IMG/VR virus record: IMGVR_UViG_3300008110_000047 | Location: 1-63,898 of that record | From: a virus | Reading direction: 5' to 3' (one strand) | Length of the DNA stretch: 63,898 nucleotides | In this document: piece after piece, positions 101 through 63,898 of the stretch | Layout: each line of letters starts with the position of its first letter | Position numbering within the stretch: position 1 is the stretch's first letter | The notes under the pieces: model-generated | Seen by the model: the letters and a program-made list of their open reading frames with translations, nothing else | Databases searched by the model: none | Told to the model about the DNA's origin: nothing | Made by a program: the position numbers and the translations under genes

Positions 101-108
101 GGCGGCTT

Positions 109-125
109 GCGGACAGGTTGTCCGC
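109..125. repeat. GCGGACA-N3-TGTCCGC dyad, copy 1
   Basis: GCGGACA GGT TGTCCGC, perfect 7-bp arms, in the gap after the gene at 135-1136. It belongs to a family of six such dyads found in this window. On the minus strand no T-run follows, so termination is unlikely at this copy. Confidence 0.6.
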
Positions 126-134
126 GAGTTCGGG

Positions 135-1519: not shown

Positions 1520-1546
1520 AACTGGCGGACATGGTGTCCGCCAGTT
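1520..1546. repeat. GCGGACA dyad, copy 2, with extended 12-bp arms
   Basis: AACTGGCGGACA, a 3-base centre, then TGTCCGCCAGTT: perfect 12-bp arms, the longest of the family. It sits 10 bp past the stop of the gene at 1556-1765. No T-run follows on either strand. Confidence 0.65.
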
Positions 1547-2097: not shown

Positions 2098-2127
2098 AAA
2101 AAACTCGCGGACAAGTTGTCCGCAAGA
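2098..2127 (-). terminator. intrinsic terminator built on GCGGACA dyad copy 3
   Basis: On the minus strand CTTGCGGACA, loop ACT, TGTCCGCGAG, then T7. The stem core (2108-2124) is exactly GCGGACA-N3-TGTCCGC. It lies between the stop at 2140 and the next start at 2032, a normal terminator position. The same dyad therefore serves as a terminator stem here and appears without T-runs elsewhere. Confidence 0.65.
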
Positions 2128-2139
2128 CGTTGCCAGGAA

Positions 2140-2517
2140 CTAGGCGAGCTTGGCCTTGAAGCTGCGCTTCTGCCCCGCCGTGAGCTTGGCGTACGCAGCG
2201 AGCAACTTCTCCACGGGATCGGCTGCGCGGGCTGCGTTGATCTTGGGCAGCTTGGCGGGCGCGTCGGCTTTGGGGAAGCAAACTTGCAGCACACGATTCA
2301 TGGCCTTCTCTGCCGCGCTGTCACGCGGCAGGGTGTCACCACGCTGGCCCTGCACGATCGTCACCCCGTACTTCTTGCTGGCCCACTCCATAGCAAGTGG
2401 CCGAGCGGTGGCCCTGTCCCCAACCCCGAGGGCGAGCAACTGCTCGGCGAAACTCGCGGACGATTTGTCCGCAGCAGCGAAGACAGCGAAGACGGCGGCT
2501 TTGTTGAAGGTAGACAT
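2140..2517 (-). CDS. hypothetical protein, first gene of the left minus block
   Basis: 125 residues from ATG 2517 (MSTFNKAAVF...). GGAG lies 9 bases before it; a TTG five codons upstream is less likely. Ala- and Lys-rich, with a basic C-terminus (GQKRSFKAKLA) that could contact nucleic acid. Codons 15-21 coincide with an imperfect GCGGACA dyad. It follows a possible promoter (2595-2603) and attenuator (2531-2559), so it is likely expressed early. No family recognised. Confidence 0.55.
   Translation of the reverse strand: MSTFNKAAVFAVFAAADKSSASFAEQLLALGVGDRATARPLAMEWASKKYGVTIVQGQRGDTLPRDSAAEKAMNRVLQVCFPKADAPAKLPKINAARAADPVEKLLAAYAKLTAGQKRSFKAKLA
2456..2472. repeat. GCGGACA dyad, copy 4, imperfect and inside a gene
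   Basis: GCGGACG ATT TGTCCGC, one mismatch between the arms, within the coding sequence of the 2140-2517 gene. Imperfect and coding, so weaker than the others. Confidence 0.4.
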
Positions 2518-54422: not shown

Positions 54423-54604
54423 CAAGCAGGCTTTCGTATTGCTCGGCGCGTCCAGCACGCGGCGCACAACCATTTGGTTGCGGACATCTGCACGCCGCCC
54501 TCCGGGGGCGTATCTCTCTGGCACTTGTTGCACAGTCGCAGCGGATGCTGGGGCTGGGTGCTGGACGACTTTGGCAAAACAAGTTGCTGACTGACAAAAC
54601 TCAT
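54422..54604 (-). CDS. 60-aa zinc-finger-like protein
   Basis: LRLCNKCQRDTPPEGGVQMSATKWLCAACWTRR shows CxxC at about 25-28 and CAAC at about 47-50: a small zinc ribbon. ATG 54604 overlaps the NrdR-like stop as ATGA. May bind nucleic acid or modulate host proteins. Confidence 0.55.
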   Translation of the reverse strand: MSFVSQQLVLPKSSSTQPQHPLRLCNKCQRDTPPEGGVQMSATKWLCAACWTRRAIRKPA

Positions 54605-54951
54605 TTTTTTAACACCTTTACTTTTCTGTACGACTTGACTCCCGCCCGGGTGGCGATGGTGCTGATCATGTTGTCGCTCAAGCCGAACTCAGCCGCTACG
54701 ACGGCGTGCTTGACGCCCTGCTTGAGCAGGGCAACTATTTTCTCATTGCGTCGAGTCAGCGCCACCCGCTTGGCAATCGTGTCGCTGTGCGGGAACAGGT
54801 ACTTCTTGATGGTCTTGGTCATCCCATCGTCGATCTCGTACGTGGAGAAGCGATGCTTGCAGTGCAGGCACTGACGCCGACGGCGCAGGAAAGTCTCGAT
54901 CATTCGCGTATCCAACACCGTCGTGTCCCGCCCGCACTTAATGCAATTCAC
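54601..54951 (-). CDS. NrdR-like zinc-ribbon with HTH, lacking the ATP cone
   Basis: 116 residues from GTG 54951, GGAG five bases before it. Residues 1-40 match the NrdR N-terminal ribbon: C3, C6, a DTRMIETFLRRRRQC arm and C28, C31, then RFSTYE. NrdR normally continues into an ATP-cone; here a basic helix-turn-helix (IVALLKQGVKHAVVAAEFGLSDNMISTIATRAGVKSYR) follows instead. Host NrdR represses ribonucleotide reductase. This version could bind the NrdR-box-like sites or another target. Expressed with nucleotide-metabolism? No nrd gene is visible. Confidence 0.7.
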   Translation of the reverse strand: MNCIKCGRDTTVLDTRMIETFLRRRRQCLHCKHRFSTYEIDDGMTKTIKKYLFPHSDTIAKRVALTRRNEKIVALLKQGVKHAVVAAEFGLSDNMISTIATRAGVKSYRKVKVLKK

Positions 54952-55045
54952 GCTCGCTCCACCACAACACGACACCAAGGGCACCAATCAGCACCACGCA
55001 GATGGCAAGCAGCAGGAGGACTAGGAAGAAGGCCAAGTTAGTCAT
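54938..55045 (-). CDS. 35-aa membrane protein
   Basis: MTNLAFFLVLLLLAICVV... then VVLWWSERELH: one transmembrane helix. GGAGG seven bases upstream; starts inside the previous gene's end (ATGAC). Overlaps the NrdR-like GTG by 14 bp. Unknown function. Confidence 0.5.
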   Translation of the reverse strand: MTNLAFFLVLLLLAICVVLIGALGVVLWWSERELH

Positions 55046-55199
55046 CGTCGTCCTCCGGAATGTGCTCGTCGATAATTTGACGCTTCACAATCTCCAAGCA
55101 CCCTAGCACGGTCGGCACCAGCAGCGACTCGTCATACCTGTGGCACACCTCCAGAAGTTCATCCGTCAGGGCTTGGGCGATGTCTCCGGTGTAGTTCAT
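55038..55199 (-). CDS. 53-aa acidic hypothetical protein
   Basis: ATG 55199, AAGGAG upstream. MNYTGDIAQALTDELLEV... ends in EHIPEDDDD. Acidic, single Cys pair. Might mimic DNA; that is speculation. Unknown function. Confidence 0.5.
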   Translation of the reverse strand: MNYTGDIAQALTDELLEVCHRYDESLLVPTVLGCLEIVKRQIIDEHIPEDDDD

Positions 55200-55759
55200 G
55201 TTTTCTCCTTCGCTGCGGCGCTGTCGCACACCTCAGATTGCTGGATGTAGCGTAAAGCTGTCTGGTGGCGCGACTCGCCTTCGTACTTGTTACCGACCGC
55301 GTACAACAGTTCGTGGTAGCGGCCCTCTACCTCGTGCAGGCGGCGCATGCCGCTGGCATAGCCATCTTCCCATGCGCTGAGGTTTTGTTTCTCTGCGGGG
55401 GCTAAAGGGTTGCACAGGATGTTGTTCCACGCCACGAAAGAACCTGACGGCTGGCGCTGGCGCTGGGGCGGGGCGGCTTTGCATCCTTGCATGGCGTGCA
55501 AGTTGACCTTTTCGCAGCCGCAGGTCGGGTATTTGCACACCGGCTCCTGCCGCTCGGCCTGCTCGCCTTTCATTTCCTCGCTGGCCGCAGCAAAGGCTTC
55601 CTCTGCGCGTTTAACTCGCTCGGCCTGCTCAATGGCTTCAGTCAGCGCGTCATGTGCCTTGCACAGCGGGCACTCGCAATCGGTTTCGCTCTCGGGTGGA
55701 ATGAAGTCCAGCGCCCACTCCAGCGCCTCCAGCGCTTGCTTCATGGCGTCGATGCTCAT
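55196..55759 (-). CDS. hypothetical protein with CxC / CxxC clusters
   Basis: 187 residues. CECPLCKAHD near 28-37 and CKYPTCGCEKVN near 76-87 suggest zinc binding. N-terminal MKQALEALEWALDFIPPES is common in phage proteins of unknown role. C-terminal NLSAWEDGYASGMRRLHEVEGRY. Ends in a 4-bp overlap with a small gene. Confidence 0.5.
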   Translation of the reverse strand: MSIDAMKQALEALEWALDFIPPESETDCECPLCKAHDALTEAIEQAERVKRAEEAFAAASEEMKGEQAERQEPVCKYPTCGCEKVNLHAMQGCKAAPPQRQRQPSGSFVAWNNILCNPLAPAEKQNLSAWEDGYASGMRRLHEVEGRYHELLYAVGNKYEGESRHQTALRYIQQSEVCDSAAAKEKT

Positions 55760-55854
55760 CCCAGCACCTCATAGAGCACAAGGCCCACCGCCACCACGAC
55801 CAGCCAGAACTTCAGATTGAACAGGAAGTCCGCACGCTTTTCGTCTTCGTTCAT
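55756..55854 (-). CDS. 32-aa membrane protein
   Basis: MNEDEKRADFLFNLKFWLVVVAVGLVLYEVLG: a charged head and one transmembrane helix. ATGA overlap with the following gene. One of the mini membrane proteins of the minus block. Confidence 0.5.
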   Translation of the reverse strand: MNEDEKRADFLFNLKFWLVVVAVGLVLYEVLG

Positions 55855-56090
55855 TGTTCCCTCGCTTTCAGCATCGCGTCGGCCATTTCATACGCAGTTA
55901 ACGCAGTGAACTTCGTTGCCGCCATGTCGGTGTGCTCAGCTACAGCCTCTCGCCAGTCCGCGCTACTGATCAGCCCCTGCATCGCCTTGGCCGCGAAGTA
56001 GTCGCGCAGGGTCATGCCTTCTTCATTCACCATCACCTTCCGTTCAAGGTCATACGCCTCACACGGAAAAGCCGGGCCCCCGGTACTCAT
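55851..56090 (-). CDS. 79-aa conserved phage hypothetical protein
   Basis: GGPAFPCEAYDLERKVMVNEEGMTLRDYFAAKAMQGL and AYEMADAMLKARE are segments seen often in phage proteins from my memory. Helical. Overlaps the neighbouring ATG. No known activity. Confidence 0.6.
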   Translation of the reverse strand: MSTGGPAFPCEAYDLERKVMVNEEGMTLRDYFAAKAMQGLISSADWREAVAEHTDMAATKFTALTAYEMADAMLKAREQ

Positions 56091-56290
56091 TTCACCCTCC
56101 GCACGGCAGGCTCCCAGTGGGTCTCGGGCACGCGCTCAGGTGGGGGCGGGGTCATCTTCTCGCTGGGCGGTGTCCAGCCAAACCTGCGCCACGTAGCCTG
56201 TACGTCAGCGCCTCGCTGATAGCTGAACTTGATGTCGGTCACGCGCACGCTGGGCATGGTCAGGCTTGGGTGATGCGTTTCTTTGGTCAT
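56087..56290 (-). CDS. 67-aa hypothetical protein
   Basis: GAAAGGAAAGCGCC before ATG 56290. Pro-rich C-terminal half (GWTPPSEKMTPPPPERVPETH), basic. Ends in ATGA overlap with the next gene. Unknown. Confidence 0.45.
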   Translation of the reverse strand: MTKETHHPSLTMPSVRVTDIKFSYQRGADVQATWRRFGWTPPSEKMTPPPPERVPETHWEPAVRRVK

Positions 56291-56302
56291 GGCGCTTTCC
56301 TT

Positions 56303-57205
56303 TCAGTTGAAAATCTTCTGGAGTTCTTCGTACACGGCCTTGGCCTGAATGACGGACAACCCGTTGAGCACATCGGTCGGAGACCACGCGCCGGGCGCGG
56401 GGCGCAACACCAGCGAAGGCGCATTCTCCTCCACCACGGGCTTGCTGCGCCGCACAACTTTCATCTGCTTGCGCAGTGCCCTGCGGGCGGCCTTCTCCTC
56501 TTGTTCGCGCAGCTTCTGCTTCCTGAACGCGCTGGGGGCCTTGAGCGGTTGGTACTCATCGACGATGGTGCGCATGCCTGTGGAGTCACCCTCTGCCAAA
56601 CCCTGCGCCAGCATCGAGGCGAGGATCGAACTGACCGAGGTGCGGTTGAACCCCTTGGCCTCCAGCGCGCGGATGGTCTCCATGCGTGTGCATCCGGGGT
56701 TGGCCTTCACGTAGTTGAACGTCTCGCGGGACACGTTGTTGGTGGGGGCGAACAGATGTTTCATTGGTTTCTCCTTGGGTTGCGTGGTTGCGGTTTCAGT
56801 GATGACGGCTGCGCCGCCTTCGTCGTCCCAGTCTGCCGGGATGGTGGGTGCGCTCGGGGTCGCCTCGGGGAGAGGCATCACGCTTTTTTGCGCGAGCGCA
56901 GATTGCAAAGCGTCTTGTAAAGAAGGCATGACCGTTCCTTTCTCTTTGGTCTGGGTAAGTTGTTTAATGTGGGCGACCCACTCAGCGATCTCGTGCTTGC
57001 GATACAGCGGGACGTTGCGTTTGCCACAGCGCAGTACGGGGGCGGGGGCTCCAGAGTGCTGATGCGCCATGCGCCCGTACCACTGCGGGGTTACCCCCGC
57101 TGCCTCGCAGCACTCTCTGAGGTTGAACAAGGGCGAGTGTTTGATGCCCGCCTCCTTGTCTGCCAGCCTGCGGTAGTGCATAGCAGCAATAGACTCGTAT
57201 TTCAC
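56303..57205 (-). CDS. wHTH-containing protein with internal start sites
   Basis: 300 residues from GTG 57205 (GGAGTGATAT upstream). N-terminal part looks DNA-binding (ECCEAAGVTPQWYGRMAHQ with a MerR/HTH-like helix pair). Two internal in-frame ATGs have strong ribosome sites: 56929 (MPSLQDAL..., AAAGGAACGGTC) and 56764 (MKHLF..., AAGGAGAAACCA). The last part has a winged-helix-like segment (ETFNYVKANPGCTRMETIRALEAKGFNRTSVSSILASML). It may be three stacked proteins or one protein with shorter isoforms. Confidence 0.55.
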   Translation of the reverse strand: MKYESIAAMHYRRLADKEAGIKHSPLFNLRECCEAAGVTPQWYGRMAHQHSGAPAPVLRCGKRNVPLYRKHEIAEWVAHIKQLTQTKEKGTVMPSLQDALQSALAQKSVMPLPEATPSAPTIPADWDDEGGAAVITETATTQPKEKPMKHLFAPTNNVSRETFNYVKANPGCTRMETIRALEAKGFNRTSVSSILASMLAQGLAEGDSTGMRTIVDEYQPLKAPSAFRKQKLREQEEKAARRALRKQMKVVRRSKPVVEENAPSLVLRPAPGAWSPTDVLNGLSVIQAKAVYEELQKIFN

Positions 57206-57217
57206 ATATCACTCCTT

Positions 57218-57721
57218 TCATTTGGTCGGGAAGGGGTAGCTTTTCTTGCGCCACTTGGGGTTCTTGGCGTACAGGTTGACCAGCATGTTGGGCGTAGGGC
57301 GCAGCGTGTGGCATATCTCAAGGTCCAGCCCGGTGCCGATGCCCACGAGCACGGCCATGTTCTCCAACACCGGGTTGAGATGTTTGCAGCCAAAGCTCAA
57401 AGCCTCGGCCATGTCCATCCCTTCCTCGGCGGCAAGCACGTCCACCTCGACGACACCCACCACCTCACCCAATTGCAGCGTGTGGCCGATCCTGTCGCCG
57501 TCAGTGAGCCATGACTTGGTGGACCCCTCAACCCGCGCGGTGATGCCGAGCTTGGGGCCGTCCCACTGGCGCGGGTCTTCAAAGGTCTCGGTCTTCCAAA
57601 TCATGAAGCGTGCGTAGAGCGTGGGCGCATCTTTCTCAAATGCGAAAGGGCTTGGCTCCCGCACACGTACGAGGTGGAAGGTCAGCGGCCCCTCAGAAAC
57701 TGAACTTATCGAGGATTGCAT
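57218..57721 (-). CDS. hypothetical protein, alpha/beta
   Basis: 167 residues. Mixed alpha/beta with MIWKTETFEDPRQWDGPKLGITARVEGSTKSW and a C-terminal FGCKHLNPVLENMAVLVGIGTGLDLEICHTL. The start overlaps the DUF3150-like gene by 29 bp. No family recognised. Confidence 0.5.
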   Translation of the reverse strand: MQSSISSVSEGPLTFHLVRVREPSPFAFEKDAPTLYARFMIWKTETFEDPRQWDGPKLGITARVEGSTKSWLTDGDRIGHTLQLGEVVGVVEVDVLAAEEGMDMAEALSFGCKHLNPVLENMAVLVGIGTGLDLEICHTLRPTPNMLVNLYAKNPKWRKKSYPFPTK

Positions 57722-58565
57722 CGACGTTCTTCTTCACATCGTCACGGACAGCGGCGTTCTTGCGCAACTCGGTGGGGGTGACATTGCACAGCAACTGCTC
57801 CAACTGGCTGCGCGTGGACTCAAGGTCGGCATCCCCGGTGACGTTCAGCGCCTTGGTCATGTCGCACAACTCCAGCGCACCCTCGACGAGAGAGTCGTGG
57901 AACTTGCGGGGCTTGGCTTCCCCGGCAATGTAGTCAGTGGTCAGGCGGTCAGACATGCGCTTCAAGTGATCCCCGAGGCGCTTCCTCACATCAGCCATGG
58001 CCTGCTCCACTCGCTCGTCAGCAAGGCGTTGCAGCTTGGCCTTGATGTCGTCCATGGCTGCGTTACCCACGTCAATGCGAAAGTCCCCTGCGGTGGGCAC
58101 GGGCATGTAGTTCACCCGGAAGCTGAACTTGGTCATGATCTCGTTGGCCGTGGGGTAGTCGTCGCGCTTGAACATATCGCCCAGCGCCATCGCCTGTGCC
58201 GTGATCAGCGAGGGGTAGACGGCCACGAAGATTTTCACGAGGTCAGTGAACTCCTCCTCCAACTCGTTCATCTTGGTGGCGAACTTCTCGAAGTTGATGG
58301 TGGGCAGCAGGCGCAGCCCCGAGTCGGACCACGGCAGGGTGTTGTCGTACACGTACTGGCGAGCACGACCGATCATGGACTGGATGACCTCCAGTTCGTT
58401 GCGACCTGCCAGCAGGTGCTTGTTGACGCGGGCTGCGTCCTTGGCCCCGGCACGCTTGGCCGTGACGACTTCCTCGGTTGCGCCCTTGTCGAGCTTGCGT
58501 GCGGTCCACACGCTGGCGTTGAATTCTGCGAGCATGGCGCAGGTGTCGATGTTGTAACGGGTCAT
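57693..58565 (-). CDS. DUF3150-like protein of the MoxR-vWA module
   Basis: 290 residues, AGGAGAACCAACC before ATG. Helical. Contains AKRAGAKDAARVNKHLLAGRNELEVIQSMIGRARQYVYDNTLPWSDSGLRLLP, consistent in my memory with DUF3150, which travels with CobS/MoxR ATPases and vWA proteins in phages. Acts with the next two genes; its role is unknown. Confidence 0.55.
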   Translation of the reverse strand: MTRYNIDTCAMLAEFNASVWTARKLDKGATEEVVTAKRAGAKDAARVNKHLLAGRNELEVIQSMIGRARQYVYDNTLPWSDSGLRLLPTINFEKFATKMNELEEEFTDLVKIFVAVYPSLITAQAMALGDMFKRDDYPTANEIMTKFSFRVNYMPVPTAGDFRIDVGNAAMDDIKAKLQRLADERVEQAMADVRKRLGDHLKRMSDRLTTDYIAGEAKPRKFHDSLVEGALELCDMTKALNVTGDADLESTRSQLEQLLCNVTPTELRKNAAVRDDVKKNVDAILDKFSF

Positions 58566-58586
58566 GGTTGGTTCTCCTTTGGTTGA

Positions 58587-59777
58587 TCAAGCGGTAATGC
58601 GCAGCACCTTGCCACGCTGGGGGACGAAGTCGTCGTTCTCCACCACGCCCCAGAGCACAGGCAACTCGGGCAAGCGATACTCGGACTCGATGTAGCCGTC
58701 GGTCAGCATGATGACTGCCTTGGGCTTGTATTGCTTCTCAGCAATATAGTCAGCAACGCACGACACAGTAGTGCCGCCGCCACCCTTGGGGCTCATGAGG
58801 TCCCCGATCTTGTCGAACTGGTCGGGCTCGAACTCTTGGTCACCCGCCACGCTGGTGTCCCACCACAGCACACGAACCTTCTCGGGCTTGGCGTTCTGGC
58901 AGACACGGGCGATCTCGCCGAACACGATGGGGTAGGCCCAGTGCATGGAGCCAGAGGTGTCGCACGCCACGATGATCTCGCCCACGTTCTCGTCGAAGTG
59001 CGACGGCATGACGAACCCCGACGCAAGCATGCGGCGGTTGGGAGGACAAAAGCGCGAGTTCTCATCCCCCTTGCACACGTTGTTGATGAAGTCCGTGAGT
59101 GCGTCCTTCCAGTTGGTGCGTCGCTCGGCCATGGTGCCGAAGATGTCCTTGCCACCCTCCTTGTCCCCGCGCAGCTTGCGCGAGAGCAACTCGCCTTGGC
59201 GGTTGGCATCGTCGATCATCTTCTCCAGCTTCTCACGCACGTCGGCAGGCATCTCCTCGGGGGACATCTGGTGCTCGTCCATCGGGTCGCCCTGCCCGGG
59301 CTGCTTCTCGGGGTTCTCCTTGGCGTCTTGAATGAGCGCGTGCAGCACCTGCGGGAAGGACATGCCCTCGTACTTGGCATCCACCAGCGGCGGCACCTTG
59401 GTCGGGCGCTCGACGAACTTGAACTCGGGGTCAAGCTCCTCGATCATGCCGTTGACCACATAGTCCGCTGCCATGTTGGATAGCTGGCCGTGCTTCTTGA
59501 ACAGGTCAACGTAGTAGGGCAGCACGCAGTGCTTGAGCGCCACATGGAAGTTCTCGTGCAGCACGAGGTAGCGCAGTTGCTTGCGCGTCATGTCGCCGAT
59601 GAACTCGGCACCATACAGCTTGTCCTTGCCGTTGGTGCACGCCGTCGGGATGGCGGGCGAGGTCTCGGACTTACCCATGGCGATGACGCCAGCAAGACGC
59701 GAGAACTGAGGGTGGCGCATGCAGTCGATGTTGGCTGCTTGAATGCGCTGGTTGGGTGTCAGCTTATCGAAGCTCAT
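58587..59777 (-). CDS. vWA domain protein with metallopeptidase-like N-terminus
   Basis: 396 residues from ATG 59777 with AGGAGAACCAACC before it. HENFH at 74-78 is a zincin-type site; D273-T-S-G-S277 is the metal-ion-dependent adhesion site of a von Willebrand A domain; the end has ESEYRLPELPVLWGV. Resembles the DUF2201 arrangement. vWA proteins pair with MoxR ATPases to remodel or mature protein complexes. Linker is acidic and Met/Pro-rich. Confidence 0.75.
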   Translation of the reverse strand: MSFDKLTPNQRIQAANIDCMRHPQFSRLAGVIAMGKSETSPAIPTACTNGKDKLYGAEFIGDMTRKQLRYLVLHENFHVALKHCVLPYYVDLFKKHGQLSNMAADYVVNGMIEELDPEFKFVERPTKVPPLVDAKYEGMSFPQVLHALIQDAKENPEKQPGQGDPMDEHQMSPEEMPADVREKLEKMIDDANRQGELLSRKLRGDKEGGKDIFGTMAERRTNWKDALTDFINNVCKGDENSRFCPPNRRMLASGFVMPSHFDENVGEIIVACDTSGSMHWAYPIVFGEIARVCQNAKPEKVRVLWWDTSVAGDQEFEPDQFDKIGDLMSPKGGGGTTVSCVADYIAEKQYKPKAVIMLTDGYIESEYRLPELPVLWGVVENDDFVPQRGKVLRITA

Positions 59778-60106
59778 GGTTGGTTCTCCTTTGGTATTGA
59801 CGTGGGGTCCCACTCGGATGGGTGGAACAACTCCTTGTGGTCGGCGTTGCGCCGGGTGAAGACGAACTCCCCCACCCCATGCTGCATAGCCCACAGGTGG
59901 GCCATGTTCTCTAGGATGGTGGCGTGGTCGTGGTTGTGGTCGTTGTGATCCGAGCGTGCCAGCAGGACCGTGCGCTTGCTCTTGATGCCGATGTATCCAT
60001 AGACCGAGAGCACGATCCACGCCTTGCGCTTCCACACCGAGCCCCGCAGGACGATCTCGCCCTTGCGATTGACCACCAGCGGGTACTTGGGTGAAAAGAA
60101 CTGCAT
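59774..60106 (-). CDS. hypothetical protein inside the MoxR module
   Basis: 110 residues. MQFFSPKYPLVVNRKGEIVL and WKRKAWIVLSVYGYIGIKS, then a His/Asp-rich loop (SDHNDHNHDHATI) that may bind metal. Its last codons (KENQP) carry the AGGAGAACCAACC ribosome site of the vWA gene. TGATG junction with the ATPase gene. Confidence 0.5.
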   Translation of the reverse strand: MQFFSPKYPLVVNRKGEIVLRGSVWKRKAWIVLSVYGYIGIKSKRTVLLARSDHNDHNHDHATILENMAHLWAMQHGVGEFVFTRRNADHKELFHPSEWDPTSIPKENQP

Positions 60107-61233
60107 CACTTGGTGCTGAAGAAAATCTTGTGCGCAGCCAGCATCTTGCCGAAGTTAGCCAGCGTCACATAGATGGCAGTGCGCGAAGACTGCGCCACTG
60201 TGTTGCAGAAGATCGACTGAATCTCTGCCTTCATGCGCCACACGTACTCGACGATCTTCTCTGCGTCCTCGCGGTTGTCACAGCGGGAAACGAACTGGAA
60301 AATCTGCACAAGCTGTGCGGTGGGGTTGTCAGACAGCGGCGCAGTGGCAGGGTCCTTGAGCACGCGGTCATACGAGCAGATGTCACGACCGAAGCGCACG
60401 AACGCGGACAGGTTCTGCGCTGCCACCTCACCGATAGCGCCAGCGATAGCCGACTCCAACGTGTCGTCGTCGAGCACGCCGTCACCCTCTTGCAGGATGT
60501 CCGACGCTGCCACAAGGGAGCGAGGCGTGACGTAGGCCGTGGCAGTCGAGCGAGGGTTGAAGATCATGCCGTTGTCCTTGGACAAGTCCTTGCCCTCGAA
60601 CTTGCCACCCTTCTCGTAGTCGAGGAACGAATCAAAGATTTGCGGGTAGCTGTTGGCAAAGGCGATGATCGACGCGTTGAGACCGCGCGGGATGGCAAAG
60701 TTGTTGACCCACTCCTCCATGGTGGGCTTGCGCATCTTGACGAAAACCAAACGATTCCTGAGATGCGCCTGAATCGAATCGCCCAGACCCTCGATGGCGA
60801 GGTTGGTAAAGCACACCACAGTGCTGCCCTCGGGCATGTGGAAGTTGCCGACACGACGCTCGTAGACGACGGGAGCCAGCACGTTCTTGATGAACTGCGG
60901 AGCCTTGGCAATCTCATCGAGACCCACGAGGATCGGCTTGCTGCCGTTGACCCCGAGTTGGTTGTGCTTGCTCACACCGAAGCGCTCGTTGGGTAGCTCA
61001 CGCGAGACGCCGTTCTCAGTGTCGAGACAGGGCATCCACACCGAGCCATCAGAGAGTTGCGTGCAGTCAACCGGATCGACAGCGATGTGGTCAGCGAACT
61101 TGGGGCTCGCCTTGAGGGCGTGGAACAGCGCGGTCTTGCCGATGCCGTTCTCACCCTCGACGATGATGGTGCGCTTGTGGCCCACAGCGGCGATGAGGGC
61201 GACGACTTGGGAAAAGGAAAGAAGTTTTGACAT
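60106..61233 (-). CDS. MoxR-type AAA+ ATPase
   Basis: 375 residues from ATG 61233, CGGAGATTCAAC upstream. Walker A GENGIGKT (27-34), Walker B ILVGLDE (101-107), sensor-like FTNLAIEG, and a C-terminal lid (VTPRSLVAASDIL). MoxR/CobS-like ATPases work with vWA partners as chaperones or to insert metals. Heads the module; preceded by a promoter and dyad operator. Confidence 0.85.
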   Translation of the reverse strand: MSKLLSFSQVVALIAAVGHKRTIIVEGENGIGKTALFHALKASPKFADHIAVDPVDCTQLSDGSVWMPCLDTENGVSRELPNERFGVSKHNQLGVNGSKPILVGLDEIAKAPQFIKNVLAPVVYERRVGNFHMPEGSTVVCFTNLAIEGLGDSIQAHLRNRLVFVKMRKPTMEEWVNNFAIPRGLNASIIAFANSYPQIFDSFLDYEKGGKFEGKDLSKDNGMIFNPRSTATAYVTPRSLVAASDILQEGDGVLDDDTLESAIAGAIGEVAAQNLSAFVRFGRDICSYDRVLKDPATAPLSDNPTAQLVQIFQFVSRCDNREDAEKIVEYVWRMKAEIQSIFCNTVAQSSRTAIYVTLANFGKMLAAHKIFFSTK

Positions 61234-61266
61234 GTTGAATCTCCGTTGCAAAAAATGTTTGTAGAT

Positions 61267-61289
61267 GTTGCGGACACTGTGTCCGCAAC
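61267..61289. repeat. GCGGACA dyad, copy 5, with 10-bp arms, downstream of a promoter
   Basis: GTTGCGGACA, CTG, TGTCCGCAAC. It lies 13 bp past the -10 of the MoxR promoter, near the start of the transcript. Position is typical of a repressor operator; an RNA hairpin in the leader is the alternative. Confidence 0.7.
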
Positions 61290-61302
61290 TTGTTGTGGTG
61301 TC

Positions 61303-61331
61303 AGTATAGCTGTGTGTCTAGTGTTGGACAA
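61303..61331 (-). promoter_or_regulatory. sigma70-like promoter for the MoxR module
   Basis: Minus strand: TTGTCC (61326-61331), 17-bp spacer with GACACACA, TATACT (61303-61308). Good -10 (5/6) and spacing. It lies in the 112-bp gap before the MoxR gene. Its internal block TTGTCC...GACACACA...TATA matches the promoter at 1402-1429. Confidence 0.6.
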
Positions 61332-61345
61332 CTCCTTTCTGTGGG

Positions 61346-62305
61346 TTACTGAGTGTGGATATTGCTTAGAACTAATTGTTCACGGCGTGGGAATTGCGGG
61401 TACTCCACGTACCCATTGGTTCGATTCAGGCGCAGCGCCTCCTGCACCTTGGCCCATACCGCCTGAATCAGTTGCGCCTCAGTGATCGGCTCGATGTCAG
61501 CGTACGTGGGGTCTTGGCGGTTGCCCCACTGCAAGAAGCCCTTCTCCACCGCACGTCGGCTGGCGATGCTGTCGAACACCGACTCGGCCAAGTCCATGAA
61601 GGTCTCGACCTCGCCATCTGCGGGCTGGATGCCTAGCACGAGGGAGTTGTGCAGGTCGCGCAGCGTGTCCACTTGCGGCGTGTACAGGTTGATCCCTCGG
61701 AAGATTCCCCCCGTCGAGCGGTCGAACGCCACGCGCTCAACGAACTGCGGTATCTGCATGGCTGCCAGCGTGAACAGCGGGTCGAACACCTTGCGCGCCT
61801 CGGCCCGTGCCTTCTTGTCGTCGGGGCTGCTGACCTTGCGGTAGATGCGCGTGTGCCGGGACTTGGCCACCATGAGGGCGTTGCCCGGCGTGAACCATGC
61901 TTGGACAGAGAAGGGTATACCCGGCTCAAGGGCACGCGTACGGATGGGCATGATCACCTCCTCGCCACTGCTGGTGCGCACCTTGTTGAGTTCATCGACG
62001 CCCAGCACGTTCCACATGAACCCCTTGCTGGTCTGCGAGCCGTCGCCTTGGTACTCACGCAACTCGTTGCCCTCTGCGTCGGGCTTGTGAAAGCGCGCCA
62101 TCACTGTGTGGTACAGCACGAGGTCGTATGACTCGCCGTTGTCATTCTTTTCTATGCGGTAGTGGTACGAGCTTGTGTCTTTGAGCGGGCGTTGGAAAGG
62201 GCTCCACTTGCGCGAACGTGGGGGCAGCTTGGTCTTCTCGAAGTAGGCGTGTGCCTGTGCGTAGTTGTGGATGCTGGGCAGCACCCAAGTTTTTCCTGCG
62301 AACAT
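61346..62305 (-). CDS. hypothetical protein, 319 aa
   Basis: AGGAGAACCAACT before ATG 62305. Alpha/beta, with GFMWNVLGVDELNKVRTSSGEEV and FDPLFTLAAMQIPQFVERVAFDRSTGGIFRGINLY. No motif recognised. Upstream of the MoxR promoter, so in a separate transcript unless read-through occurs. Confidence 0.5.
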   Translation of the reverse strand: MFAGKTWVLPSIHNYAQAHAYFEKTKLPPRSRKWSPFQRPLKDTSSYHYRIEKNDNGESYDLVLYHTVMARFHKPDAEGNELREYQGDGSQTSKGFMWNVLGVDELNKVRTSSGEEVIMPIRTRALEPGIPFSVQAWFTPGNALMVAKSRHTRIYRKVSSPDDKKARAEARKVFDPLFTLAAMQIPQFVERVAFDRSTGGIFRGINLYTPQVDTLRDLHNSLVLGIQPADGEVETFMDLAESVFDSIASRRAVEKGFLQWGNRQDPTYADIEPITEAQLIQAVWAKVQEALRLNRTNGYVEYPQFPRREQLVLSNIHTQ

Positions 62306-62331
62306 AGTTGGTTCTCCTTCACTGGTTGGGG

Positions 62332-62979
62332 TTAAACAATCTTTCCGTTCTCATCGAAGCGCCACTCGTTGGCCTCGGCAAGTTCTACGAAGTAGTCGTA
62401 GCTGGTCTCGTACTCGTACTCGGACTGGATGCGGTCGGACAATTCGTCGGCGTACTTGCGCGCCTCGTTGGCCATCCAGATTTGCAGCATGTCCACCATG
62501 TGCAGGTAGTCAATCGAGTTTGCCAGCGTCACCACGTCGGCACCCTGCAACACCCCCTTCGTGATGCTGCATTTGGTCGTGTCGTCAAACCCCGCCACGG
62601 CGATGTCGTCCACCTCCATGATGCCGGAGTGCACCGAGCGCCAGCCTTTGTAGTTGGCGAATGCCGTCGCATCTATCCACCCGTCAATCACTAGCTCACG
62701 CAGCACCATGTACTGCGGCTGCTGCGGGTGGTCGTCCTTGAGGTGGTAGTCGATGAACTCGGGGATTCTTATGAGGCCCGCCCATGCAGCGCCGTCGCCT
62801 TGCGAGAAGCCCAGTGACCAGCGCACGTCGTCAATGTCGAAGCCACGCTCCACGCCCTGCTCCTTGAAGTCGTCGATCACCCAGTCAGGGGAGAAGTCCA
62901 TGTTTGCCTGCCAGTCGAGCATTGCTCTGTCTTTGGCTTGGTTGGATAGCTCGTCGAAGGTGTAGGTTTTGTCGGTCAT
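62332..62979 (-). CDS. conserved phage protein with SLGFSQGDGAAW motif
   Basis: 215 residues, AGGAGACAGC before ATG. FDELSNQAKDRAMLDWQA at the start and WSLGFSQGDGAAWAGLI in the middle are conserved among phage proteins of unknown role (from memory). Acidic C-terminus. Possibly hydrolase-like or an inhibitor; not assigned. Confidence 0.6.
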   Translation of the reverse strand: MTDKTYTFDELSNQAKDRAMLDWQANMDFSPDWVIDDFKEQGVERGFDIDDVRWSLGFSQGDGAAWAGLIRIPEFIDYHLKDDHPQQPQYMVLRELVIDGWIDATAFANYKGWRSVHSGIMEVDDIAVAGFDDTTKCSITKGVLQGADVVTLANSIDYLHMVDMLQIWMANEARKYADELSDRIQSEYEYETSYDYFVELAEANEWRFDENGKIV

Positions 62980-62987
62980 GCTGTCTC

Positions 62988-63263
62988 CTAGTTGGCGGTG
63001 TCGTTGTCACGCATGGTTTGCAGCGTGAGGTACTTGTCGAGCGTCTCCTGCGAGATGAGCTTGATGCTGGGGATGTGGCGCTTAACCTCGAACGGCAAGA
63101 ACTTGGCGTCGTACTGGCAGTCGGTGCCGTAGAAGCCTTTGTCCTTTCCCTTCCACTCGGTCTCCACGACAACAGCCCCGGTCAGCGCCTTGAGTAGTTT
63201 GTCGATCTGTGCGGGGGTCAGCCACATCTCGTTGTTGTTGATGTTCAGTGCAAATTTAGCCAT
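62988..63263 (-). CDS. 91-aa hypothetical protein
   Basis: ATG 63263 with AGGAGAACCAACC. MAKFALNINNNEMWLTPAQI..., TEWKGKDKGFYGTDCQYDAKFLPFEVKRH. A frame running upstream to 63440 has no support and is rejected. Unknown function. Confidence 0.5.
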   Translation of the reverse strand: MAKFALNINNNEMWLTPAQIDKLLKALTGAVVVETEWKGKDKGFYGTDCQYDAKFLPFEVKRHIPSIKLISQETLDKYLTLQTMRDNDTAN

Positions 63264-63300
63264 GGTTGGTTCTCCTTGAGGTTGCGGTTGATGGTCGGCG

Positions 63301-63456
63301 CTATGCGCGCCAGAGGAAAACGTCGAGCAGGACGACGATGATTGCGGCTGCGTAGGCGAAGGGCAGTGCGTATGCGGACAAAGTGTCCGCAAGTTGTTGC
63401 CTCCACGAGTAAAGCCGAATAGGTTTCGCAATAGTTTCACGCTTGGCCTTTCTCAC
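63301..63456 (-). CDS. 51-aa membrane protein carrying a GCGGACA dyad
   Basis: GTG 63456 overlaps the previous stop as GTGA. Basic head (RKAKRETIAKPIRLYSWRQ), then ALPFAYAAAIIVVLLDVFLW: one transmembrane helix. The dyad 63374-63390 lies in its coding sequence (ADTLSA). Function unknown. Confidence 0.5.
   Translation of the reverse strand: MRKAKRETIAKPIRLYSWRQQLADTLSAYALPFAYAAAIIVVLLDVFLWRA
63374..63390. repeat. GCGGACA dyad, copy 6
   Basis: GCGGACA AAG TGTCCGC, perfect 7-bp arms, inside the 63301-63456 gene. It does not form a terminator. Confidence 0.6.
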
Positions 63457-63878
63457 ACGCTGATCTCCACAGTGGCCGTCGCATTCTGAAGCAGGTTGTT
63501 GACCTCGTCGGACAGGTTCTCGTTGAGGTAGTCCGACACCATCTCCCCCACAGCGTCGCGGTCGAGTGTGTTGCGCTCAAGGTCTTCTACGTCTGACGAC
63601 AGGCGGTCCAGCGTGCGGTCGTAGTCGTCGTACTGTTCGTGGTCGTAGCTGCGCTCGTGGTCGTCCATGCGCTGGTTGATTAGCTCGATGATCTTGTCCG
63701 TGGTTGTCTCGTCGAGCAGGCGCATCGTGGCTGCGTTCTCCACAAGTGCAGCAAAGCGCTGCTCCACCATGCGGTTGATGATCGGCATCAACCCACCCAT
63801 CAGCGCCATGGCCAGCGTGGTCACGTCGTCTGCGGGGGTTAGGGTGGTTGTGGGTGCAGGGGTGGGGGTGAGGTTCAT
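63453..63878 (-). CDS. hypothetical protein; frame continues into the left window end
   Basis: 141 residues from ATG 63878 (AGGAGAACCAAGCC upstream). Pro/Thr-rich start (MNLTPTPAPTTT), then helical (AMALMGGLMPIINRMVEQRFAALVENAATM, QRMDDHERSYDHEQYDDYDRTLDRLSSDVEDLERN). Acidic coiled-coil type. The open frame extends upstream to the window end and, joined to base 1, to an ATG at 61. Function unknown. Confidence 0.55.
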   Translation of the reverse strand: MNLTPTPAPTTTLTPADDVTTLAMALMGGLMPIINRMVEQRFAALVENAATMRLLDETTTDKIIELINQRMDDHERSYDHEQYDDYDRTLDRLSSDVEDLERNTLDRDAVGEMVSDYLNENLSDEVNNLLQNATATVEISV

Positions 63879-63898
63879 GGCTTGGTTCTCCTGTGCTT

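Follow-up and report, generated by a model that had tools for sequence, protein, structure and literature searches.

The 63,898-base virus record IMGVR_UViG_3300008110_000047, analyzed here at its full length and referred to as the window, encodes a MoxR-like AAA+ ATPase, a von Willebrand factor A (VWA) protein with a zincin-type putative metallopeptidase part (zincin-VWA) and a DUF3150-like protein on its - strand. The three products would constitute an ATP-driven machine of three subunits that remodels proteins and includes its own protease, a reading to which we assign a probability of about 0.58. It is supported by intact ATPase motifs, by the HEXXH motif and the metal ion-dependent adhesion site (MIDAS) of the VWA protein and by the finding that the three genes are encoded together in a phage group. 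A first-pass annotation of this DNA had described four consecutive open reading frames (ORFs) as a self-contained ATP-driven remodelling machine. The four ORFs were confirmed in the described order (ATPase, a small ORF, zincin-VWA, DUF3150-like; Table 1), and the proposed machine retains support at the sequence level for three of them, whereas the small His-rich gene is not part of the core.

The core genes stay together in viral relatives

Relatives were fetched as 61 loci via the DUF3150-like protein and 49 via the VWA protein, one of them common to both. Five repeat fetches of a contig already in the set were dropped, giving 104 loci, and 103 loci with a core gene remained once L063, which holds a DUF3150 tail at the contig start and nothing else, was set aside. 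The trio of ATPase, zincin-VWA and DUF3150-like gene was complete in 91 of these 103 loci and always on one strand, while in the other 12 the missing gene would fall past the contig end. Where the contig extended at least 4.5 kb beyond the core genes in both directions, the trio was complete without exception (31/31 loci). A search for the same gene order in other phages had been suggested as a check; the three genes shared one strand in 91/91 complete loci, but their order varied between VWA-ATPase-DUF3150 (44 loci), ATPase-VWA-DUF3150 (43) and ATPase-DUF3150-VWA (4). That membership stays the same while the order is shuffled is the strongest indication that the three genes work together.

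The window is DNA of a tailed phage. Its structural genes, namely those for terminase, portal, tail fibre and virion protein, occupy the + strand between 3.6 and 28 kb, and the - strand carries the module as well as helicase/primase, helicase, exonuclease, HNH and DNA polymerase genes. The module shares its side of the genome with the replication genes and is remote from the structural ones.

Sequence and predicted structure of the three proteins

The ATPase carries the Walker A motif GENGIGKT, a Walker B DE and a TPR sensor-2-like motif, and G30, G32, K33, D106, E107, N144, R161 and R238 were invariant in 45 aligned rows; we take these residues, R161 excepted, to be those of Walker A/B, sensor 1 and sensor 2, assigned to the motifs by eye. 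As judged from these motifs (Walker A/B, sensor 1, sensor 2), the protein is predicted to be of the MoxR AAA+ clade, and the adjoining VWA partner gene that characterizes the clade was found on the same strand in 91/91 complete loci. The ATPase matched phrog_1297 (E 5.9e-38). In the PDB, the best match of the ATPase profile was midasin (E 2.9e-7, residues 6-42 only), and a sequence search with the ATPase alone as query gave no match.

An extra HENFH motif had been noted in the VWA protein and was confirmed as H74-E-N-F-H78. The protein exceeded the Pfam cut-offs for both DUF2201_N, a putative metallopeptidase domain (E 2.9e-11, 43.9 bits, cut-off 23.2), and the VWA-like DUF2201 (E 2.6e-13, 50.6 bits, cut-off 26.4). 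In 79 sequences H74, E75, H78 and D105 as well as the MIDAS residues D273, S275, S277, T336 and D360 were invariant. An AlphaFold2 model (predicted local distance difference test score, pLDDT, 81.5; predicted template modelling score, pTM, 0.53) placed HEXXH on helix 65-80 and D105, which is probably the third zinc ligand, on helix 98-115. Residues 263-396 of the model matched VWA domains (VIA Z 12.7, root-mean-square deviation 2.6, 133 aligned, 3zqk), and the VIA list contained VWA domains only. With Foldseek, the MIDAS domain of human MDN1 was matched first (E 1.2e-4), Ro60 and other VWA proteins came next and chains of the NorQD complex were found lower down the list (E 6.0e-3). A PDB sequence search with the VWA profile gave no match. 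By the pattern DXSXS...T...D and the VWA fold, the C-terminal part is a VWA domain with a MIDAS, while zinc-dependent cleavage by the zincin part is putative. 'HNH endonuclease' is the label of phrog_1314 and of the zincin-VWA entries in the RefSeq phage records L003, L141 and L143. This identity was rejected, as no HNH family was matched by the window protein or by seven homologues from six phage records and one plasmid record, three of them called HNH endonuclease by RefSeq; all matched DUF2201_N and DUF2201 instead.

The third protein matched Pfam DUF3150 (PF11348) with E 5.5e-5 and 23 bits, below the cut-off of 24.9. It is termed 'DUF3150-like' because of this score and because chromosomal members are too distant to be matched to it by profile. 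Long helices dominate its predicted model (pLDDT 77.0, pTM 0.63). The fold was matched by eight viral models at E <= 8.1e-7, the best of which is A0A6J7WV52, named DUF3150 (E 3.4e-18), and no relative was found in the PDB, where the best Foldseek match had E 0.69 and the best VIA match, among helical bundles, Z 8.1. The DUF3150-like gene is adjoined by ORF 56303-57205, the C-terminal 208 amino acids of which appear winged-helix-like by eye and which has a homologue in 69/91 complete loci.

Homologues on plasmids and chromosomes

Among plasmid records, DUF3150 was found on 44 and the VWA protein on 45; 41 records carry both, three DUF3150 only and four the VWA protein only. In all 41 common records the two genes lie on the same strand. 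The gap between the matches was 93-803 bases in 39 of them and 2,840 in one, and in the last one the matches stand at opposite record ends, as if astride the record start. An ATPase gene was located upstream in all six plasmids inspected, giving the order ATPase-DUF3150-VWA; in plasmid L113 other genes intervene within the trio and the ATPase match of L117 is divided between two ORFs. Phage and plasmid ATPases matched by profile with a probability of 100 (E 1.5e-41). HEXXH was present in five of the six plasmid zincin-VWA proteins examined, as well as in the MinM2 and Presley proteins. Typing of the 44 DUF3150 plasmid records classified 20 as non-mobilizable, 16 as conjugative and eight as mobilizable.

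A gene for PRTRC ThiF, which is E1-like and part of a presumably ubiquitin-like system, accompanies the trio on at least 34 of these 41 plasmids (L114 and L115 included), a lower bound since the best 60 of 292 ThiF records in total were used. It lies on the same strand upstream of the module, at a distance of 5.0-11.3 kb in 32 plasmids and 21-35 kb in two. Of the other seven trio plasmids, three were searched whole and gave no ThiF. PRTRC as an obligate partner was rejected, as ThiF was found in three of six plasmids searched whole. The co-location is an association and not proof of joint action; the plasmids are mostly from Burkholderiales and may share one backbone.

PF11348 scored over its cut-off in nine of 398 Pseudomonadota genomes, once on a phage-like contig (G001). 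Eight wider chromosomal regions were fetched and their ORFs scanned in part; seven of them surround an over-cut-off DUF3150. Near these, a CbbQ/NorQ-type AAA gene was present in four of seven (L133, L134, L135, L137) and a CobT-like VWA gene in five of seven (L133, L134, L135, L136, L139), whereas neither was found among the five neighbours scanned in L138. L133 and L134 are near-copies with 97% identical ATPases. All four chromosomal VWA proteins examined contain HEXXH (L133, L135, L136, L139), and a ribonucleotide reductase large-subunit gene lies nearby in L136. The phage models themselves gave no match in the eight wider regions.

The ATPase/VWA pair in other phages

Among phage records, 569 contain a relative of the VWA protein and three, cyanophage records of equal length, a relative of DUF3150. 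Profile searches of eight whole records (seven phages, one plasmid) detected the ATPase in all eight, Presley and MinM2 by construction since they are rows of the ATPase profile. DUF3150 was detected in one of the eight, MinM2, which is not a row of the DUF3150 profile. In MinM2 an annotated MoaE-like gene (L002:524-838) lies about 6 kb upstream of the module copy.

Pairs of this kind have been described before. In jumbo phages of group 2.2 an AAA+ MoxR ATPase is encoded beside a vWA protein that starts with a metallopeptidase domain (PMC7824862), a likeness drawn from the description given there; in contrast, the main text of that paper does not contain DUF3150, and the trio occurs here in a 64-kb phage group and on plasmids. 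N4 genes 24 and 25 are reported as core genes of N4-like phages and listed as 'Unknown' and 'vWFA domain', and the pair (gp24/gp25) is called middle gene transcripts (PMC4193335); the terms 'putative ATPase' and 'vWFA' are used in PMC2784036. A MoxR-type pair is also named in phage 0305phi8-36 (PMC2147016), and MoxR-vWA pairs with a third component appear among proposed conflict systems (PMC7159879, PMC12839542). Among the Schitoviridae homologues of N4 gp24/gp25, SBP1 encodes the same ATPase family as the window (A3 profile, E 5.4e-41), as does Presley in its capacity as a profile row, and both carry a DUF2201_N+DUF2201 protein, the comparison being one with the sequences of these two phages. 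Unlike the window, Presley, SBP1 and KPP21 have no detectable DUF3150, and another small gene sits between their pair. The CobS/CobT, CbbQ/CbbO and NorQ/NorD types likewise combine an AAA+ partner with a MIDAS-bearing VWA protein, but the phage ATPase is only weakly similar to them by profile and the DUF3150-like protein is added.

The first-pass annotation had regarded the module as an undescribed system. This does not hold for the ATPase/zincin-VWA pair, which is published (PMC7824862; N4 genes 24/25, PMC4193335). As far as searched, DUF3150 as a constant third partner, the homes on plasmids and a companion gene upstream of the module (see below) look new; the word DUF3150 was absent from the 5.39 million open-licence papers searched, a set outside which most subscription papers fall. 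With a third partner and plasmid copies at hand, the function can be studied in the absence of a phage, and both findings count against a role confined to the virion.

A proposed remodelling protease and alternative explanations

In the proposed machine the ATPase would form a ring, and the MIDAS of the VWA domain would hold an acidic residue of a client, as it does in midasin, CbbQ-CbbO and NorQ-NorD. ATP hydrolysis would then pull the client, which the zincin part (H74, H78 and probably D105) would clip, and the helical DUF3150-like protein could serve as scaffold or client adaptor. The client is most likely a host protein or one on the replication/expression side, and not a virion protein alone, because the module lies away from the structural genes and has homologues on plasmids. 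A narrower version, in which a three-subunit protease of phages and large plasmids uses the DUF3150-like protein as adaptor, unfolds selected host or element proteins and clips them outside any virion role, and may act with PRTRC on plasmids, seems possible but doubtful. If true, the DUF3150-like protein would be a new dedicated adaptor subunit of a protease common to phages and plasmids.

Several observations weigh against the remodelling protease. The loci were seeded by two of the three genes, and the counts exclude phages without both. Of the seven whole-searched records with DUF3150 undetected, the six other than KpS8 were shown to have both the ATPase and the zincin-VWA gene, and thus the third subunit is not needed everywhere; to the extent that sequence searches can detect it, DUF3150 is a third component tied to certain lineages, and the two-gene form is widespread. 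HEXXH is missing from plasmid copy L118, so cleavage would not be universal. The ATPase had no Pfam AAA_3 or AAA_5 match and is tied weakly to the CbbQ type (profile probability 24.7, E 7.9e-4). The zincin part is identified by Pfam, motif and secondary structure, and was barely tested by the fold searches. Compared by profile with six chromosomal DUF3150 members, the phage protein reached a probability of 2.5, and the putative link between phage and chromosomal DUF3150 draws on sub-cut-off Pfam scores and the name of one viral model. That the proteins form a complex, hydrolyse ATP and cleave a client is in each case inferred.

A role in virion assembly, with the ATPase and zincin-VWA protein acting as chaperone and processing enzyme that fold and trim head or tail proteins, has been suggested for the pair of jumbo phages on the model of a tail-assembly pair from an archaeal virus (PMC7824862), and the core status of genes 24 and 25 in N4-like phages is in line with it (PMC4193335). 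In the window, however, the module is far from the structural genes and on the opposite strand. The designation of gp24/gp25 as middle gene transcripts also speaks against it, yet some virion proteins of RPP1 are encoded nearby (PMC4193335). The DUF3150 and zincin-VWA genes on 41 plasmid records count against virion assembly as the only role. We consider this explanation unlikely; gene position and plasmid homes argue against it as the sole role, though the module may still contribute to virion assembly in this phage. Slightly less probable still is a counter-defence or host-takeover machine that takes apart an immune or transcription complex of the host in the early phase of infection. A location apart from the structural genes, presence on other mobile elements and a third subunit restricted to some lineages would suit such a role, but PADLOC gave weak P-loop matches for the ATPase, one weak match for the companion gene and nothing else, and the pair belongs to the core gene set in N4-like phages. 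Most anti-defence genes are not known to be core genes.

Metal cofactors had also been suggested as a target, which found little support. In a metal-cofactor insertion machine of the CobS-CobT or NorQ-NorD type the HEXXH domain would hold a metal for delivery and cut no protein. The CobT-like VWA and CbbQ/NorQ-type AAA proteins at chromosomal DUF3150 loci, the NorQD chains among the fold matches and the ribonucleotide reductase gene at L136 are compatible with this, while the His run of the small gene is not kept and no chelatase subunit was named in the annotated stretches of six plasmids and MinM2 (the neighbours in viral loci were not searched for metalloenzymes). Among the explanations weighed here it is the least probable, and a quite improbable one.

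Leader, promoter and palindromes

A leader shared by the module genes had been reported. The sequence AGGAGAACCAACC occurs exactly before the VWA and DUF3150-like genes, that is before two of the four, and also exactly at 63264 and with one mismatch at 62306 and 63880. Ten matches with at most two mismatches were counted where 1.3 were expected, which is not chance. AGGAGAACCAACC is a general leader of the phage and not specific to the module.

The 'good promoter' ahead of the ATPase gene, TTGTCC-17-TATACT, is on its own no better than chance, as three promoter-type sites were found in 55000-63898 with 1.9 expected (standard deviation 1.5). Such sites are nevertheless enriched in the leaders of ATPase-first relatives, 31/36 of which have a site of at least 9/12 within 160 nucleotides compared with 18% in shuffles; for VWA-first leaders the count was 14/37, again with 18% in shuffles. 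The dyad behind the promoter was borne out: it is perfect, with 11-bp arms around one base, lies 13 bp after the -10 and is far above chance. It is not the module's own control element, however, since the window contains six copies in all (107, 1523, 2105, 2454, 61268 and 63372). The palindrome TTGCGGACAnnnTGTCCGCAA was found in these six copies at >=15 of 18 fixed positions and in five at >=16, whereas 20 shuffles gave none at >=16/18 and 0.05 on average at 15. All six would lie within about 5 kb if the record ends were joined, as we suppose them to be.

Palindromes with 9-bp arms and a 3-bp spacer were then scanned in the 104 relative loci. The largest family had at least two copies in 39 loci and at least three in 27, and local shuffling, done once for each locus, did not yield two copies in any of them. 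The palindrome is common within a genome and differs between many genomes (TTGCGGACA, TCAGGTGCA in L009, TCAGTATCA, TGGCAGACA, TCGTGGACA and others), and its type differs even where the flanks are similar (window 63372, L011 4114, L009 3772). Sets of 3-6 copies per genome stretch were seen in the window, L005, L008, L009, L011, L022, L023, L041, L043, L067, L084 and L102. Since the type switches as a set between genomes, the palindromes point to a trans-acting recogniser that may co-evolve with its sites, in the manner of immunity operators. They are like the stoperators of cluster A mycobacteriophages (PMC6550527) in being repeated sites with a per-genome consensus that differs between related phages, and unlike them in being palindromic and fewer (3-6 per genome stretch; 27 loci with >=3).

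Loss of the operator in relatives, which according to the first-pass annotation would speak against its proposal, was observed in part. In loci with at least two palindrome copies and a readable leader, a leader copy was present in 0/15 VWA-first relatives but in 9/18 ATPase-first ones. A palindrome of some kind lies 5-22 nucleotides after the -10 in 18 of the 38 ATPase-first leaders, that of the window among them. A comparison of putative recognisers by partial correlation of protein identity with palindrome type given VWA identity did not identify the recogniser, using 28 sequences with >=3 copies (window included) from which pairs with >97% VWA identity were dropped and in which kin are not independent. 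Values were 0.45 for DUF3150, 0.40 for UP215, 0.21 for ORF 55851 (8 loci), 0.15 for the winged-helix-like product, 0.05 for the ATPase, -0.02 for the companion gene and -0.20 for ORF 63453; six ORFs, including the NrdR-ribbon protein, occurred in too few loci.

No common motif was seen in the sequence after the dyads. Intrinsic terminators were rejected, as among five window copies printed that at 2105 alone has an immediate T run in gene direction. N4-type hairpin promoters for a virion RNA polymerase were unsupported: the giant ORF 33242-41473 matches LPD38 and no PDB RNA polymerase. This ORF encodes 2743 amino acids with the large polyvalent protein domain LPD38.

Accessory genes and further features of the window

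The gene junctions had been described as overlapping, which applies to two of three: the ATPase gene and the small ORF overlap in TGATG, and the latter and the VWA gene in ATGA, whereas the third junction is a 21-bp gap. The small ORF has a homologue in 15/91 complete loci. Its His run is present in the window lineage and not conserved in relatives, so that 'His-rich' fits the former only, and the ORF was rejected as a metal-binding subunit.

The companion gene gave no match in phage records, Pfam or PHROGs. It was found in 81 of the 91 complete loci; nine of the ten loci without it have the trio at the contig start, and in L060 none was within reach. It keeps near the trio even when the gene order shifts: in L042-L045 it is found 3' of the trio, and in three of these four the palindrome of the genome stands 24-27 nucleotides before its start, with another small gene in between in L043. 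In L120, a contig of a Chthoniobacterales metagenome-assembled genome and probably a phage contig binned with the bacterium, the order is companion, ATPase, VWA and DUF3150.

Table 1. Coordinates of the module, its upstream elements and the palindrome copies in the window
Feature	Position	Strand	Basis or remark
MoxR-like AAA+ ATPase, 375 aa from ATG 61233	60106..61233	-	motifs, PHROG match
Small accessory ORF, 110-111 aa, not core	59774..60109	-	no Pfam or PHROG match
Zincin-VWA protein, 396 aa; N-terminal putative metallopeptidase (HENFH), C-terminal VWA with MIDAS	58587..59777	-	Pfam, motifs, fold
DUF3150-like protein, 290 aa, mostly helical	57693..58565	-	Pfam DUF3150 below cut-off, predicted fold
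Companion gene, 319 aa, unknown family, upstream of module	61346..62305	-	81/91 complete loci
Sigma-70-like promoter TTGTCC-17-TATACT	61303..61331	-	
Dyad GTTGCGGACACTGTGTCCGCAAC, 13 bp after -10	61267..61289		
Palindrome copy	63372..63392		17/18 fixed positions
Palindrome copy	107..127		17/18
Palindrome copy	1523..1543		16/18
Palindrome copy	2105..2125		17/18
Weaker palindrome copy	2454..2474		15/18; probably within gene read from about 2516

At the DNA level no close phage record was found for window positions 40000-63898. Positions 54601-54987 code for a small protein that contains an NrdR-type zinc ribbon (Pfam E 1.6e-11) and weakly matches helix-turn-helix regulators.

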